Assembly (NCBI GenBank): GCA_036939755.1
Contig: JALLAZ010000529.1
Coordinates: 1-22,332 of the forward strand
Direction of reading: 5' to 3'
Source: Stephanodiscus triporus
Taxonomy: Eukaryota; Bacillariophyta; Thalassiosirophyceae; Thalassiosirales; Thalassiosiraceae
Length of the DNA stretch: 22,332 nt
This document shows positions 4,499 through 17,415 of this stretch, piece by piece. Numbering within the stretch: the first letter of the stretch is position 1; each line of letters starts with the position of its first letter. Both the position numbers and the translations under genes were made by a program. The notes under the pieces are model-generated. The model was not told the DNA's origin and searched no databases. It saw only the letters and a list, made by a program, of their open reading frames with translations.

Positions 4499-4761
4499 TT
4501 GGCATTGGTACGTAAGTACGTACCATACTACTCTACTTATTACTCCTCTGTCTCACAATTAGGGGTTGACTATGCACAAGCGATGAATTTGTACCATCTC
4601 TTTTTCCGGATGGTGTTCTTCGGTATCTGGTATTCATTTCTACTTGTTCCCTCTAACCTGGGCACAAGGGGGCTGTTTTTTTTATGACTTAGCGGTATTT
4701 TTGAAAGCACCTAATATTATTTTGATACGAATTCGTACTTTATGATATTCCTCGCCAATTT
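4499..4761. promoter_or_regulatory. Divergent intergenic region between WD40 and Ala-rich genes
   Basis: This 263-bp gap separates two divergently transcribed genes. At its WD40 end lies the near-palindrome GGTACGTAAGTACGTACC (4507-4524), which holds two TACGTA copies. At its other end lies the perfect 12-bp palindrome TACGAATTCGTA (4726-4737). The same 12-mer opens the array in the downstream gene's predicted intron. A shared promoter is inferred from gene orientation. Confidence 0.45.
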
Positions 4762-4987: not shown

Positions 4988-6073
4988 ATGGCAAAGAGCA
5001 GCAAGCGGAAATCTTCCTCTCCCAGCAAGGGCGCCCCCCCCCCCCTGTTGTTCGGCCTTCATCCACCCCACAGAAGGCAGCCCCCGCCATCCCAGATGGT
5101 GGAGTTCCCACCCCCAGGCGGTCTCAGCGGCCCAGAAAATCGACAATCATTGAATCTGCAGTGGGTGCAGCTCCTCGTCATCATGTTGCCACCACCATTG
5201 CCACTGTGGCTGTTGGTGCCACTGCCAGTACTGCCATTGCTGGCGCTGGTGCCGCCGCTGGTGCCGCCACCGCCGCCGCCACCGTTTCCGCCTCCCCCAC
5301 AACAGCCACCACCATGAAAAGGCAGGGCGGGGGGAAGGCTGCGGTTTCTGCTGCCATTGTGGATGCACCAATTGATGTGTCTGAGGCAGTCCCCACCAAT
5401 GCCTCAGCCACTGGGAAGTCTCGCACAAGACATGGCGCCGCGGCAGCAGCTACCACTGCCTCCACAACCACCACCAACAACAACAAGAAGGCTCGTGGAA
5501 AGAAGCAGGCTGAGCCAGCCATCCCCGCCGCCATTGCTGTAGCAGCTCCTGTCCCTCCTGCCGCTGCCACAGTCTCCACAAAAGGGAGGGGAGTGGCCTT
5601 GAGGCTGCCTACCAGGAAAAGTGCTCGAAGTGGTCATGCTCATCGCATTGTTGTTCAAGTTCAAGGGAGTGGCAATGATGATGAGGCCCAGTAAGTCAAC
5701 TACGAATTCGTACTGTTTTTTGGATGTAATTCGTATGATACGACTTCGTACTTTGTCCTGTGAAGTACGAAGTCGTACTTTTGTTGAGACAGTACAAATT
5801 CATACTGTTGAATGACTTGGTATGAACTCGTACATTTGAATCTGAGCATACCAATTTGTACTTCTAATTCTGTCCATACCAATTTGTACTGCTTAACACA
5901 ATCATACGAACTCATACTGTTCACCGACGATACCAATTCGTATGTCCATCTCCCCACCCTATGAAATCTTAAGGGGCGATGACGATCCGGACTATGTTGA
6001 ATTGGAGGAAAAGGATGACGAAGACATCAATGAAGAGGAGGAAGCTAACGATGTGGATGAGAAAATTGACTGA
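4988..6073 (+). CDS. Ala-rich basic protein with acidic tail, two exons, frame disputed at a poly-C run
   Basis: The gene is not recognised. The favoured start is the ATG at 4988 (context CCGACCATGG), which gives MAKSSKRKSSSPSK, a nuclear-type basic N-terminus. That frame leaves the rest at a run of 12 C (5034-5045). The frame that continues to 5690 is open from 4762, so either the start is upstream (4762 or 4891) or the C run carries an indel. The body is Ala/Thr/Pro low complexity with basic patches (RRSQRPRK, KKARGKK, RKSAR), resembling AT-hook or linker-histone-like tails. Exon 1 ends at 5690 before GTAAGT. Exon 2 starts at 5974 after TTAAG and restores a Gln codon in phase. It adds an acidic tail rich in Asp/Glu that ends at 6073. 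A DNA- or chromatin-binding role is inference. Confidence 0.5.
5691..5973 (+). other. Predicted 283-bp intron carrying a palindrome array
   Basis: The donor GTAAGT is at 5691-5696 and the acceptor AG at 5972-5973, after a pyrimidine-rich stretch (5946-5960). No AG occurs in the last ~125 bases before the acceptor, a clean exclusion zone. Splicing joins two acidic segments in phase 2. Without splicing, translation stops at 5692-5694. Not confirmed by transcript data. Confidence 0.6.
5701..5942. repeat. Array of nine 12-bp palindromic repeats, period about 28 bp
   Basis: Palindromic 12-mers of the form TAC(G/C)AATTCGTA start at 5701, 5739, 5766, 5793, 5821, 5849, 5877, 5905 and 5931. The first is perfect; others vary (for example TACGAAGTCGTA, TACCAATTTGTA). 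A degenerate half copy lies at 5725. Intervals after the first are 27, 27, 28, 28, 28, 28 and 26 bp. Spacers of 14-16 bp mostly begin CT and are otherwise different from one another, so this is not a plain minisatellite. The array fills most of the predicted intron. Function unknown. Confidence 0.85.
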
Positions 6074-6186
6074 AGCCTCGGATCATTTGAGTGTCACGGC
6101 GAAATCCCAGTGTCTTGATGCAGTCTCCTTGCTCCAAACTATCATCCTCCATTGTCTCTCATCTGTAAGTATTAACGTATGTATTT
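6074..6186 (+). other. Region after the acidic exon, ending in a strong donor-like site
   Basis: After the stop at 6073 another frame stays open and reads like protein (SDHLSVTAKSQCLDAV...). It reaches GTAAGTATT at 6165-6173, a near-ideal splice donor, about 20 bp before the mobile element begins. This may be a further exon after an indel near 6070, with the element sitting in the next intron, or chance. Confidence 0.3.
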
Positions 6187-6338
6187 ATGTACGGGGTTTA
6201 GGCAATTTTTTTGACCTAACCCTAAGTGGGTACATAAGTGGGTACATAGTCGCTACGTGACTGGAAAACGCTCCAGTCACGTAGATGTAGAATCTCCTCC
6301 ATGCGCGCGAGTGCGAAAAAAACTCGAAGTCATAGAAA
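6187..6338 (+). repeat. Left-end repeat H, copy 1
   Basis: This is about 150 bp, shared with 7762-7906. It begins TATGTACGGGGTTT, holds a doubled GTGGGTACATA motif (about 6226-6249), a perfect hairpin (6253-6284) and a distal shared block ending AAGTCATAGAAA. It also contains CCTAACCCTAA, which resembles two TTAGGG telomere units on the other strand; the second copy lacks this. Confidence 0.8.
6253..6284. repeat. Perfect 13-bp hairpin in H copy 1
   Basis: CTACGTGACTGGA (6253-6265) is followed after 6 bases by its exact complement TCCAGTCACGTAG (6272-6284). The same stem with a different 5-base loop occurs in copy 2. It may be a subterminal transposase-binding or folding site. Confidence 0.85.
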
Positions 6339-7568: not shown

Positions 7569-7756
7569 GAATTAAATACTTATTCGTTAGGTAAAAAAAA
7601 ATGCCTAAACCCCTAAATATCTTTTTGGAGTAAAAATTACCGCGAGGCCTACTAGCTTTAAGAGCGCTAGTACAATTGAATATTTGGGAAATAGGCATTT
7701 TATTCTGCCTAATCTACCTGTAGGAACTCATAAAATTGCCTATACCCAGGTTATGT
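7569..7756 (+). repeat. Right-end repeat R, copy 1
   Basis: This 188-bp AT-rich block is almost identical to 8873-9059, with roughly ten or fewer differences by eye. It contains several GCCTAA motifs, a short dyad CTAGC...GCTAG, and ends TGCCTATACCCAGGTTATGT. The inverted-repeat core is mutated here compared with copy 2. Confidence 0.9.
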
Positions 7757-7761
7757 ATAAT

Positions 7762-7906
7762 TATGTACGGGGTTTTGGTAGGCAAAATTCTTTACTTATG
7801 CAAAAGTGGGTACATAGAGTGGGTACATAGTCTCTACGTGACTGGAAGCACTCCAGTCACGTAGAATCTCCGTGCGAGTGCGAAAAAAAACTCCAAGTCA
7901 TAGAAA
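7762..7906 (+). repeat. Left-end repeat H, copy 2
   Basis: This 145-bp block is homologous to 6187-6338. It keeps the doubled GTGGGTACATA motif, the hairpin (7834-7864) and the distal AAGTCATAGAAA. Its inverted-repeat core has a small insertion (GGGTTTTGGTAGGCA). Confidence 0.8.
7834..7864. repeat. Perfect 13-bp hairpin in H copy 2
   Basis: The stem CTACGTGACTGGA (7834-7846) and its complement (7852-7864) are identical to copy 1, while the loop differs in length and sequence. Conservation of stem but not loop suggests the structure or the paired sites matter. Confidence 0.85.
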
Positions 7907-9303: not shown

Positions 9304-10777
9304 TTAATATTGTACTTGAAACAAAGGGTTAGCCCTAAAAGAGAGTTGGGTGAGCACAGCAATAGCACCAAAAACTGATTGGTGTTCCGTTAATGCATGA
9401 CGGTATGTACCGCACAAAATAGCCCAATTCTTGAACCGCTCATTTACGGTCTCCTGGCGGCTTCGTACCCGCTGCTGTATTCCAGCAGTAGCAGGATTCG
9501 CCTCCACACCGCCAGGGCATTTCACGTAGTATGGGGCGGCGCCTTGGTACCCCCGATCCGTCTCGCACCTCTCCCCTGGCTGCAGCATATAAACCAAACC
9601 ATCCCAGAAGATAGCCATGTCATTCCATTTTCCGGGCGCGTATGGCCCACTCCACCAGCAAATGCTCCCAGTTTGGATGCAGAGCCCTACCTCGTACCGC
9701 AGCCCGCTTTTCTTAAATTTGTAGCTCCAGAAGGGCTTAGAATAGCCCTTCGCAATCCGAAAGTCAGTCCCATCGACCGACAACAAACAATCCTTCCCGA
9801 CATCACCAACCAGTCTGTTCTCAAACTTTATCTGCTGGGACAGTGAATGAAAGATGAGTTGCAGCGGTTTAACAAATAAAAAAACACAGCAACAATAAAC
9901 TTGCCACTTCTTCATTCAATTCGAAAAGTGAATGAATAAAAGGCCAAATATTCTTATATATTGTCTTGGGGTCTTTCCCCTCCAACAACGCAGAGAGAGT
10001 GGTATCATTGGGAGGGTAAGCTCGCATGAATGCGAGCGCCCACAAATAATGACGGAAATCGGGTTTAGGCGGGAGGCAGCCATGGTCAGCCATCATCCCC
10101 CACGCCTCGGCTGCAACTTCGGCGGAAACGCCGAAGAAAGCACGAAAGCGTAGGTCTTCCGGCGACCCCACGAGCAACTTCCCAAGCGTGTGGCCCGCCC
10201 GACCCATCACCTTCTGTCCGTAGACGTAGGCTTCATAGACGGTCACCTGTTTGCGGTTACAACAACGTAAAAAACAAAAAAACTGTGAAAGATTAAGACG
10301 CCTGAAGACACACGACAATGGGCCCCGACCTCGTTCGCCAACGCAGCTCCTGTCCACGACGGCGCGTCGGGCGACCGCCCCCTTGGCCTTTCGGCCGAGG
10401 GGACCGTCCGCCCGCGGGCATCTGACGGTGGAACGATTCGTTTGACCGTAGGGATGCCCCCTCGGCGGCGGGCCGGAGGACGACGACGTCAGGGGGATGG
10501 GCCCTGACCTCGTCGTTGTGGCCGACGCAGCTCCTGTCCACGACGGCGCGTCGGGCGACCGCCCCCTGGCCTTTCGGCCGAGGGGACCGTCCGCCCGCGG
10601 GCATCTGATGGCGGAACGATCGGTTCGACCGTCGGGGATGCCCCCTCGGCGGCGGTGCCGGAGGACGACGACGTCAGGGGGATGGGCCCTGACCTCGTCG
10701 TTGTGGGACGCAGCTCCTGTCTGCGACGGTGCGTCCGGCGACCGCCCCCTTGGCTTTTCAGCCGAGCAACTCACCAT
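9304..10777 (-). CDS. PIF/Harbinger-like DDE transposase, spliced
   Basis: This is a DDE_Tnp_4-type nuclease that would cut and join the transposon's ends. The proposed exons are an ATG at 10777-10775 directly before a GTGAGT donor (intron 10774-10247), exon 10246-9908, a short intron (9907-9835), and exon 9834-9304, giving about 290 aa. The middle exon carries an N-terminal helical region. The last exon holds the catalytic set: Asp in LLSVDGTDFRI, Asp in GKWNDMAIF, and Glu in RSRQETVNERFKNW. SYKFKKSGLRYEV and the final LFQVQY are features I associate with diatom copies, so the C-terminus looks complete. Acceptor TTTGTTTTTTACG...CAAACAG before 10246 is strong. Exon 1 is uncertain: the coding start could lie elsewhere, and about 290 aa is shorter than many Harbinger transposases. 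Confidence 0.85.
10318..10767. repeat. GC-rich 183-bp minisatellite, about 2.5 copies
   Basis: Copies begin near 10318, 10498 and 10681. The marker CCTTTCGGCC or its variant recurs at 10387, 10570 and 10754, giving periods of 183 and 184 bp. The last copy is truncated at 10767, next to the transposase donor site. The array lies wholly inside the proposed 5' intron and contrasts sharply in base composition with the transposase exons. It is also open as a reading frame from the same ATG, so an unspliced product with a long basic N-terminus is conceivable. Confidence 0.85.
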
Positions 10778-16205: not shown

Positions 16206-17415
16206 ATGGTTTGTATTAAGTCGCTTCTTTTCGTTGCATTCTTGACGGCACAGCACTCAGTTGAAGCTGACGCATCGCATGGGATCAGGCTTTCCAAATG
16301 TTGGTCTTCGTCGCCGAAGCATATTATTTCTTTTCGAGGTGGATCGTCTGAGTCCGTGTCTTCGTGGAGCACAGGATCAAGGTATGACTACCGAACCACT
16401 AGTCCGTCACCACAGACGAGAAATTATCAGACCTCTTCACCCTACACTCCACGCCAACAATCAAAACTGGAAACAAAGGAGGTGTTTGCTGAAGCATTTC
16501 TTCGACGAGAGGATAGAAATAGATTCATAGGTGCGCCGAATATTATTTGTCTGTTTGATTTATAATCGCTTCGTACCGTGGCAACGATCTAAATGAGACC
16601 AGCTCCCCTACGCAGCGAGAGTTTATGCGATTTTGACGGGGCAACTTCTCTTCACAGCTGGCACAATACATGCATTTCACATGAACCCGAACATACGAGA
16701 TTGGATGATTTGGAATCCTTCTGGGAGGAAAGGCAAGTCTGTAAATAGTAATGAAGTGAATCTTTCTTCGTTGAACTCAAAGTAAGATTGTTCATCTCTT
16801 TTGTTGTTTGTTGGTGCAGTCCCGCTGATTGGGCTTTTTATTTCATCACTTGCTTGGTGGATCACATTATCATCTGAAAACATTCGTCAGTCATCACTCA
16901 TGAGATGGCCTCTTCTTACAGCATTTACTATTGGAGAATCAATTGCGGTTGGATTTATCTCCAGCGTTTACGCCTATGGTTCTGTGATAAAAGCAATGGT
17001 TGCAACTGGCGCGGCTACACTCTCTGTGACGCTCTATACGTTACTGCAGAAAAATCCCCAATACGACCTCTCGCAGTGGGGTCGCGCGCTCTCGGGATTC
17101 GGGGTGGTTTTTTTGCTTTATGGACTGATGCGCGTATTGGAGCTCTTCGGAATCCTTCCTTATGGGTTTTTGCCATATTCTGAAGCAATGTACTGCATAT
17201 TGGGGGCAGGATTGTTCAGCTTGTATCTTGCGCATCACACACGACTCATTGTGGCAGGAAAGTCTTCGAAGTATCAGATGAACGAAAAAGACTATATCCT
17301 AGGTGCAATGTCTGTGTACAGCGATATCATAAACATCTTTTTGTATATCCTGAGGCTTTTGGGGGAACTCGAGGATGAAGATAACGATAGAGGGAACAGG
17401 CGAAGACGACGCTGA
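16206..17415 (+). CDS. Lifeguard/Bax inhibitor-1 family (TMBIM) membrane protein, three exons, 345 aa
   Basis: This is a seven-helix protein of the TMBIM family, which regulates Ca2+ leak and stress responses in internal membranes. The exons are 16206-16530, 16616-16732 and 16820-17415. Intron 1 is GT-AG; intron 2 is GC-AG (AAAG|GCAAGT), phase 1. The N-terminus has a signal-like segment (1-17), unusual for the family, then a Ser/Thr-rich stretch. Helix 1 is RVYAILTGQLLFTAGTIHAF. Other marks are PLLTAFTIGESIAVGFISSV (178-197) and YILGAMSVYSDIINIFLYIL (306-325). The sensor Asp in helix 7 (D316) is present. The partner Asp, normally in a YDTQ motif, is replaced by His (AHHTR, H287). The C-terminus is acidic, then ends in five Arg. 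Family assignment is strong; subcellular site unknown. Confidence 0.9.
16733..16819 (+). other. GC-AG intron in the TMBIM gene
   Basis: The 87-bp intron begins GCAAGT after AAAG and ends GTGCAG. Only this choice joins exon 2 to exon 3 in phase 1. The nearest GT (16737) gives the wrong phase. Introns with GC donors are a known minor class and usually follow AG, as here. Confidence 0.7.

Follow-up and report, generated by a model that had tools for sequence, protein, structure and literature searches.

A near-palindromic site array in a predicted intron of a decayed Mutator-like transposon gene of the diatom Stephanodiscus: candidate docking sites for a DNA-binding protein

Accessory gene, predicted intron and array in the window

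The stretch of DNA analysed here (the window, 22,332 bases) is a complete contig, C525, of the Stephanodiscus triporus assembly, which amounts to 21.65 Mb in 1,324 contigs. Its main features, collected in Table 1, are an element end region, exons of an accessory gene (gene 2) and an array of short sites in the predicted intron between them. The end region is matched 22 times in the genome, counting the window itself, and 14 of these matches start at its first two bases. Exon 1 of the gene 2 copy on contig C111 is open over 869 bases, unlike that of the window. The right-hand break at about 6180, together with the frame mismatch in exon 1, indicates that the window copy is a truncated and decayed relic; only one element end was found when terminal inverted repeats were sought in the window. 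An open frame is kept across the predicted 5691-5973 junction both in the window and in its C111 paralog, and the splice words are present in both, so that the intron predicted by the earlier note is plausible. The gene that holds it, however, is a decayed transposon accessory gene and not an ordinary host gene.

Among the 7,996 best candidates, a homologue search with the joined exons of the window gene found none at E 0.001, but this weighs little, since the query was the stop-free frame, which differs from the ATG frame. Rfam gave no match at gathering scores. Elsewhere in the window, a repeat at 6178-6338, which is 79% like positions 7752-7906, abuts the truncated element; a 183-bp tandem repeat (2.3 copies, 92% matches) at 10337-10766 overlaps a long minus-strand frame, and a Bax1-I protein, coded at 16801-17415, shares 99% identity with one of S. 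triporus.

Table 1. Positions of the truncated element copy and of the array units in the window
Feature	Position	Strand	Sequence or remark
Element end region	4561-4745	+	begins AGGGGTTGACT; similarity to other elements starts here
Lone perfect TACGAATTCGTA	4726-4737	none	upstream of accessory gene; C111 counterpart is TACAAATTCGTA
Exon 1, accessory gene 2	4988-5690	+	relic; ATG frame differs from splice-donor frame
Predicted intron	5691-5973	+	GTAAGT at 5691, AAG at 5971-5973; filled by the array
Unit 1	5701-5712	none	TACGAATTCGTA, perfect palindrome
Degenerate extra unit	5724-5735	none	ATGTAATTCGTA; inside the first (38) interval
Unit 2	5739-5750	none	TACGACTTCGTA
Unit 3	5766-5777	none	TACGAAGTCGTA
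Unit 4	5793-5804	none	TACAAATTCATA
Unit 5	5821-5832	none	TATGAACTCGTA
Unit 6	5849-5860	none	TACCAATTTGTA
Unit 7	5877-5888	none	TACCAATTTGTA, as unit 6
Unit 8	5905-5916	none	TACGAACTCATA
Unit 9	5931-5942	none	TACCAATTCGTA
Exon 2	5974-6073	+	acidic tail; stop at 6071-6073
Continued homology to the C111 element	6074-6180	+	ends at about 6180, where another repeat begins (about 6178)

The predicted intron of 283 bp is filled by nine near-palindromic 12-mers of the TACNAATTNGTA type at 5701-5942. A unit was scored when it agreed with at least 8 of the 10 fixed positions of TACNAATTNGTA; 2,000 dinucleotide shuffles of the intron held 0.28 such units on average and three at most. The units start 38, 27, 27, 28, 28, 28, 28 and 26 bp apart. 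Thus the count, positions and rhythm of the nine palindromic 12-mers reported earlier were recovered, but the perfect 12-bp palindrome is found in unit 1 only, and the other eight units have one or two of their six pairs broken.

The spacers are less uniform than the units. The units are 80% alike, whereas the seven spacers between units 2 and 9, aligned from their 5' ends, share 42% identity against 26% when shuffled (0 of 2,000 shuffles). Without their first two bases the same spacers share 36% against 25% (p = 0.0015), and aligned from their 3' ends 33% (p = 0.012). Tandem Repeats Finder (TRF) calls a 28-bp period over 5830-5907. Because of this residual identity the spacers look like diverged 28-bp repeats, to which tandem duplication contributed. 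The earlier note had read the variable spacers as selection on the sites and not as simple tandem duplication; the spacers are indeed far less alike than the units, but duplication has had its share.

Array sites recur elsewhere in the genome, as the proposed genome search for the motif was to find out: matches of TACSAATTCGTA number 53 forward and 55 reverse, compared with three and two for the reversed pattern. For TACGAACTCGTA an enrichment was not clear genome-wide (0 forward and 3 reverse matches; control 1 and 1). In 15 of the 29 listed contigs of the genome the exact site lies within 250 bases of a contig end; such arrays therefore probably break the assembly and are undercounted. The exact 12-mer also gave a match in a paper on nucleosomes, in the part of the literature that was accessible.

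The transposon family and the paralogous intron

To judge by its sequence relatives, the window intron lies in an accessory gene, now decayed, of a Mutator-like (MULE-type) transposon family in Stephanodiscus. On C111, gene 2 lies on the minus strand and runs towards a transposase-like gene on the plus strand, which matches genes on C881 and C1097 exon by exon; the later exons of these match C284. The SWIM zinc finger PF04434 scores above cut-off in C284 and C1097, but it is also known in other proteins and is thus not decisive for MULE membership. A profile scan of the C284, C881 and C1097 exons gave no PF10551 match and weak PF21056 matches (E 0.006 and 0.03). Among 89 metagenome homologues, precomputed annotations assign PF10551 and/or PF21056 to three: PF10551 to P0156 and P0173 (which share 76% and 67% identity with the query across 39% of its length) and PF21056 to P0143 and P0156. 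A PF10551 search of the genome found 11 other places, nine of them over cut-off and five in open frames 684-1,037 aa long, and none at C111, C284, C525, C881 or C1097. PF10551 matches on C1180, C695, C176, C623 and C1186 lie in long uninterrupted frames, in contrast to the intron-rich family described here. A close search of IMG/VR and GTDB contigs gave no relative of the transposase exon.

Terminal inverted repeats occur in relatives of the window copy: locus L035 carries the end region on both sides, inverted, with a MITE-like array between the two ends. Ten element ends were compared, four of which (the window included) read AGGGGTTGACT, two read a variant and four lack it. A target-site duplication of 8-11 bp is a trait of MULEs; the element copies examined are partial or damaged, and none was resolved with two clean ends. 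In the pieces of gene 2 that were scanned (window, C111 and C284) neither DUF1985 nor another recognised Pfam domain was found. The downstream exon of gene 2 (C111, L026:785-1446, minus strand; C284, L012:3815-4323, plus strand) has two overlapping frames, both of them alike between the copies, which a frameshift common to both, an overlooked intron or a recoding site would explain.

The window intron with its exon edges has a single other match in the genome, by a search that skips very common words. This paralog (C111:3587-3974, minus strand) shares 84% identity across exon edges and intron and has identical splice words. The nine units and the degenerate unit align one for one between the two copies, and an additional scoring site lies close to the acceptor of the C111 intron. 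Across the ten aligned units, 21 of 120 positions in the 12-mers and 17 of 122 in the spacers have changed (p = 0.48), so that the dyads, claimed earlier to be conserved, have in fact changed as much as the spacers. In the nine good units, changes affect 2 of 54 bases at positions 1, 2, 5, 8, 11 and 12, and 17 of 54 at the other six (p = 0.0002); against the spacers (19 of 134) the core comparison gives p = 0.04, with a split picked after seeing the data. Only these six core positions look constrained under this post hoc split, and CpG decay may contribute to the pattern at positions 3-4 and 9-10.

Location of the sites and shifting introns

In five element copies we delimited 12 introns and tallied sites at 8 of 10 fixed positions; the tally omits the C1097 B/C intron (which has sites), the site-free C1097 D/E gap and a short A/B gap. 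The introns hold 42 sites in 1,783 bases, the exons 4 in 9,161 bases. At least one site is present in 11 of the 12 introns and at least two in nine; the site-free one is C881 D/E, and the C881 introns are generally poor in sites (1, 2, 1 and 0). The enrichment in introns about which the earlier note had wondered is thus seen within these transposon copies, the loci having been chosen by motif. In the orthologous C/D intron, sites occur both in C881 (26 apart, in an intron of 150 bp) and, at another spacing, in C1097. Sites also lie outside introns: seven units, 22-31 apart, precede the ATG of the C111 transposase-like gene (L069:1652-1828), whose intron has four further units, two of which pass a stricter score.

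MITE-like relatives carry arrays at other spacings, 14-15 or 23/30, so that the sites recur with different spacers and spacings (14-15, 23/30 and 26-28) in separate MITEs and introns. Of 34 clusters of at least two units in the scanned loci, 22 have known MITE or end sequence no more than 700 bases away, ten of the other 12 sit inside transposon genes or between them, and the last two (L009 and L060) have uncertain settings; these loci were picked by motif, and the settings say nothing of host introns generally.

In 85 of the 89 metagenome homologues (four own-like ones were left out), 26 peptide signatures of the site occur in 2,227 residues outside the homology, against a shuffle mean of 2.8 and a maximum of 11 in 500 shuffles; 19 occur in 11,499 residues inside it. 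Of the 44 proteins that have 15 or more residues outside the homology, only 17 show a signature, and the site peptides recognised by eye in P0130 and P0166 yielded none in the automatic count outside the homology. In IMG/VR, the 14-mer ATACGAATTCGTAT is found in at least 120 stretches; among the 80 listed and scanned, L076 alone has three units inside 100 bases, and none resembles the MITE or element end. On one IMG/VR contig, two TGATACGAATTCGTATCA palindromes lie 40 bases from each other (L135:12269 and 12309), and the same 18-mer is found in the L018 MITE array, probably by coincidence.

Within about 20 codons of the transposase (NNTS-RSLLMITEG-TDERIADIQK-ASQREL), site-bearing introns stand at differing positions and are missing in other copies. 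The intron of C1097 at ITTG|TD (123 bp, GC-AG, four sites) lies ten codons before that of C284 at K|ASQ (127 bp, four sites); C881 has neither and reads straight through. The intron frames were checked by computational splicing. The E/F intron, which measures 120 bp in C881 and 101 bp in C284, is missing from C1097, and the D/E intron, present in C881 and C1097, is free of sites. When the 89 metagenome homologues were inspected by eye, 23 read through the stretch, ten become intron-like after ITxG (the own-like P0116-P0118 being excluded from this count), three become intron-like after NNTR with four more ending there, and six turn off near LDQA; the remainder fall short of the stretch or are unclear. 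Many homologues are closely related, and the turn-offs are therefore not independent events. Metagenome ORFs that run on into intron-like stretches with site peptides suggest a third intron position, within NNTS (P0166, P0138), and the ITxG position (P0128, P0130). The pattern suggests repeated intron gain in the transposase, and gain is preferred because the three genome copies require two gains, compared with three losses and an ancestral exon of 30 bases.

Candidate docking sites and their alternatives

In our judgement the array probably represents docking sites: clustered recognition sites of a DNA-binding protein, probably a dimer, that comes from the MULE-type family of this diatom or acts on it. 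The family has these sites in its non-coding parts: near the ends, upstream of genes and in introns. The protein would bind the dyads and may be encoded by the element itself, as its transposase or by an accessory gene, and clustered binding would keep the element active or mobile, as the binding of VANC does for the VANDAL elements of Arabidopsis. What the sequence itself shows is kinship with the element, enrichment in introns, sites ahead of the transposase ATG, recurrence next to MITE-like relatives and related copies whose introns bear sites. It is favoured by the C111 locus, where gene 2 with its paralogous intron stands beside a transposase-like gene with sites upstream and in its own intron, by the related transposase copies on C284, C881 and C1097, by sites far denser in introns than in exons, by the excess of peptide signatures outside the homology of metagenome relatives, and by a layout that matches the VANC targets (rapidly diverging tandem repeats in introns and upstream regions) in the accessible text of PMC5735166. 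Against it stand the absence of DUF1985 or another recognised domain from the gene 2 pieces scanned, 12-mers whose overall rate of change is no lower than that of the spacers and a core chosen post hoc, as well as the imperfect dyads of most units, the few sites in C881 introns, folding better than shuffles in some array introns and the partial or damaged state of the copies. Among the options named in the earlier note, an array on which a mobile or regulatory factor lands comes closest to this evidence.

The array may have another role. Repeat blocks that insert or expand in the coding sequence of the element could be spliced out and so make introns, with binding secondary or absent; we regard this as possible, though tentative. 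GTATGT and TACTAAT are consensus-like splice words of donor and branch site, and the units supply both. The differing positions in C1097 and C284, the intron-free C881 and 23 metagenome ORFs, the third position within NNTS, the E/F intron missing from C1097 and the site-free D/E intron all weigh on this side. However, the copies are few and loss of introns is conceivable, the third position is known from proteins and not from DNA, the signatures of P0166 and P0130 were seen by eye only, and sites also occur upstream of genes and in MITEs, where introns need not arise. The two roles need not compete: docking arrays might double as intron makers that land in the element's own coding sequence and are spliced at ever new positions, a combination that we would put forward with similar reserve. 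A 28-bp satellite-like repeat that spread with the element and decayed neutrally, without function, is unlikely. It agrees with the residual identity of the spacers and with the equal divergence of 12-mers and spacers between the paralogs, but not with the much greater likeness of the units, the near absence of sites from exons, or their recurrence with other spacers and spacings.

The possibility of a structured intron, in which unit-unit pairing folds the pre-mRNA and aids or regulates splicing, had also been raised. The window intron folds far better than its shuffles (z -6.05 and, in a second run, -6.3), and z is -2 or lower in five of 11 array introns (the window; two of C284, -6.0 and -3.4; C1097 F/G, -2.3; C881 E/F, -2.1), compared with +0.8 in the site-free D/E intron and +0.5 to +1.5 in three exon controls. 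However, palindromes raise folding anyway, z is -1.5 in the paralogous C111 intron and -0.7 to +0.4 in the five other array introns, and of the 88 pairs of the window fold 65 are unchanged in the paralog, 9 are changed on one side, only 2 on both, and 12 are broken. A shared RNA structure is not supported. Since the strong fold is not kept in the paralogous intron, recognition in DNA is favoured, and we consider the structured intron improbable. Still less credible is an intronic enhancer of a host gene, read by a dimeric host factor and later taken up by transposons: the near-dyad form would suit it and host factors could read the same site, but nearly all clusters, in loci chosen by motif, lie near MITE or end sequence or among transposon genes. 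Docking sites of the transposon family thus remain our preferred reading.

Subterminal arrays of binding sites of about 12 bp are found in DNA transposons such as En/Spm, where TNPA binds. The diatom array is similar in the size of its sites and in their clustering in non-coding element DNA, and differs in that its sites are near-dyads and extend into the introns of the element's genes. The literature searched (titles and abstract openings, with subscription papers mostly outside) gave no report of such arrays. The closest known counterpart is that of the VANDAL elements of Arabidopsis. According to the accessible text of Hosaka 2017 (PMC5735166), VANC21 binds YAGTATTAY, a motif dense in the introns, intergenic and terminal parts of VANDAL21; the motif regions are fast-changing tandem repeats, located in the VANC21 and VANB21 introns and upstream of VANA21, and VANC genes vary in exon-intron layout. 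VANDAL/VANC arrays are also the subject of Sasaki 2023 (PMC10398659), as far as its accessible text goes. The earlier statement that no described system matches is therefore too strong. With these sources (PMC5735166, PMC10398659) as the guide, the diatom family shares with VANDAL a probable MULE-type element, the dense short motif in accessory-gene introns and upstream of the transposase, the quickly diverging tandem repeats and accessory genes of varying exon-intron layout. In contrast to YAGTATTAY, which in the accessible text stands in one orientation, the diatom motif is near-palindromic; its spacing is 26-28 here and 14-15 elsewhere, its arrays also occur on MITE-like relatives, and its host is a diatom and not a plant. 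Since no DUF1985 was found in the gene 2 pieces, we do not file the element as a VANDAL; the likeness is one of layout, and the VANDAL/VANC system is further marked by a loss of DNA methylation that the element's protein brings about (anti-silencing). Introners, as far as the accessible parts of Gozashti 2022 (PMC9860276) and of a study of Micromonas (PMC3879977) describe them, also bring introns to new positions through a mobile element. The diatom introns differ in lying within the transposon's own genes, and the many near-identical introns across host genes that mark introners were not seen for the window intron, which matches one other place in the genome (common words skipped).

If the docking reading is right, the binding-site-array strategy of one plant transposon group would be paralleled in distant diatoms, with a clear and testable motif. 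If the arrays are also intron makers, the element would gather binding sites in non-coding DNA with its transposase unharmed, and selfish accumulation of binding sites would be linked to the birth of introns. The gene family, in whose copies an intron is present, missing or displaced, would also offer a compact case of intron gain that bears on the origins of spliceosomal introns.
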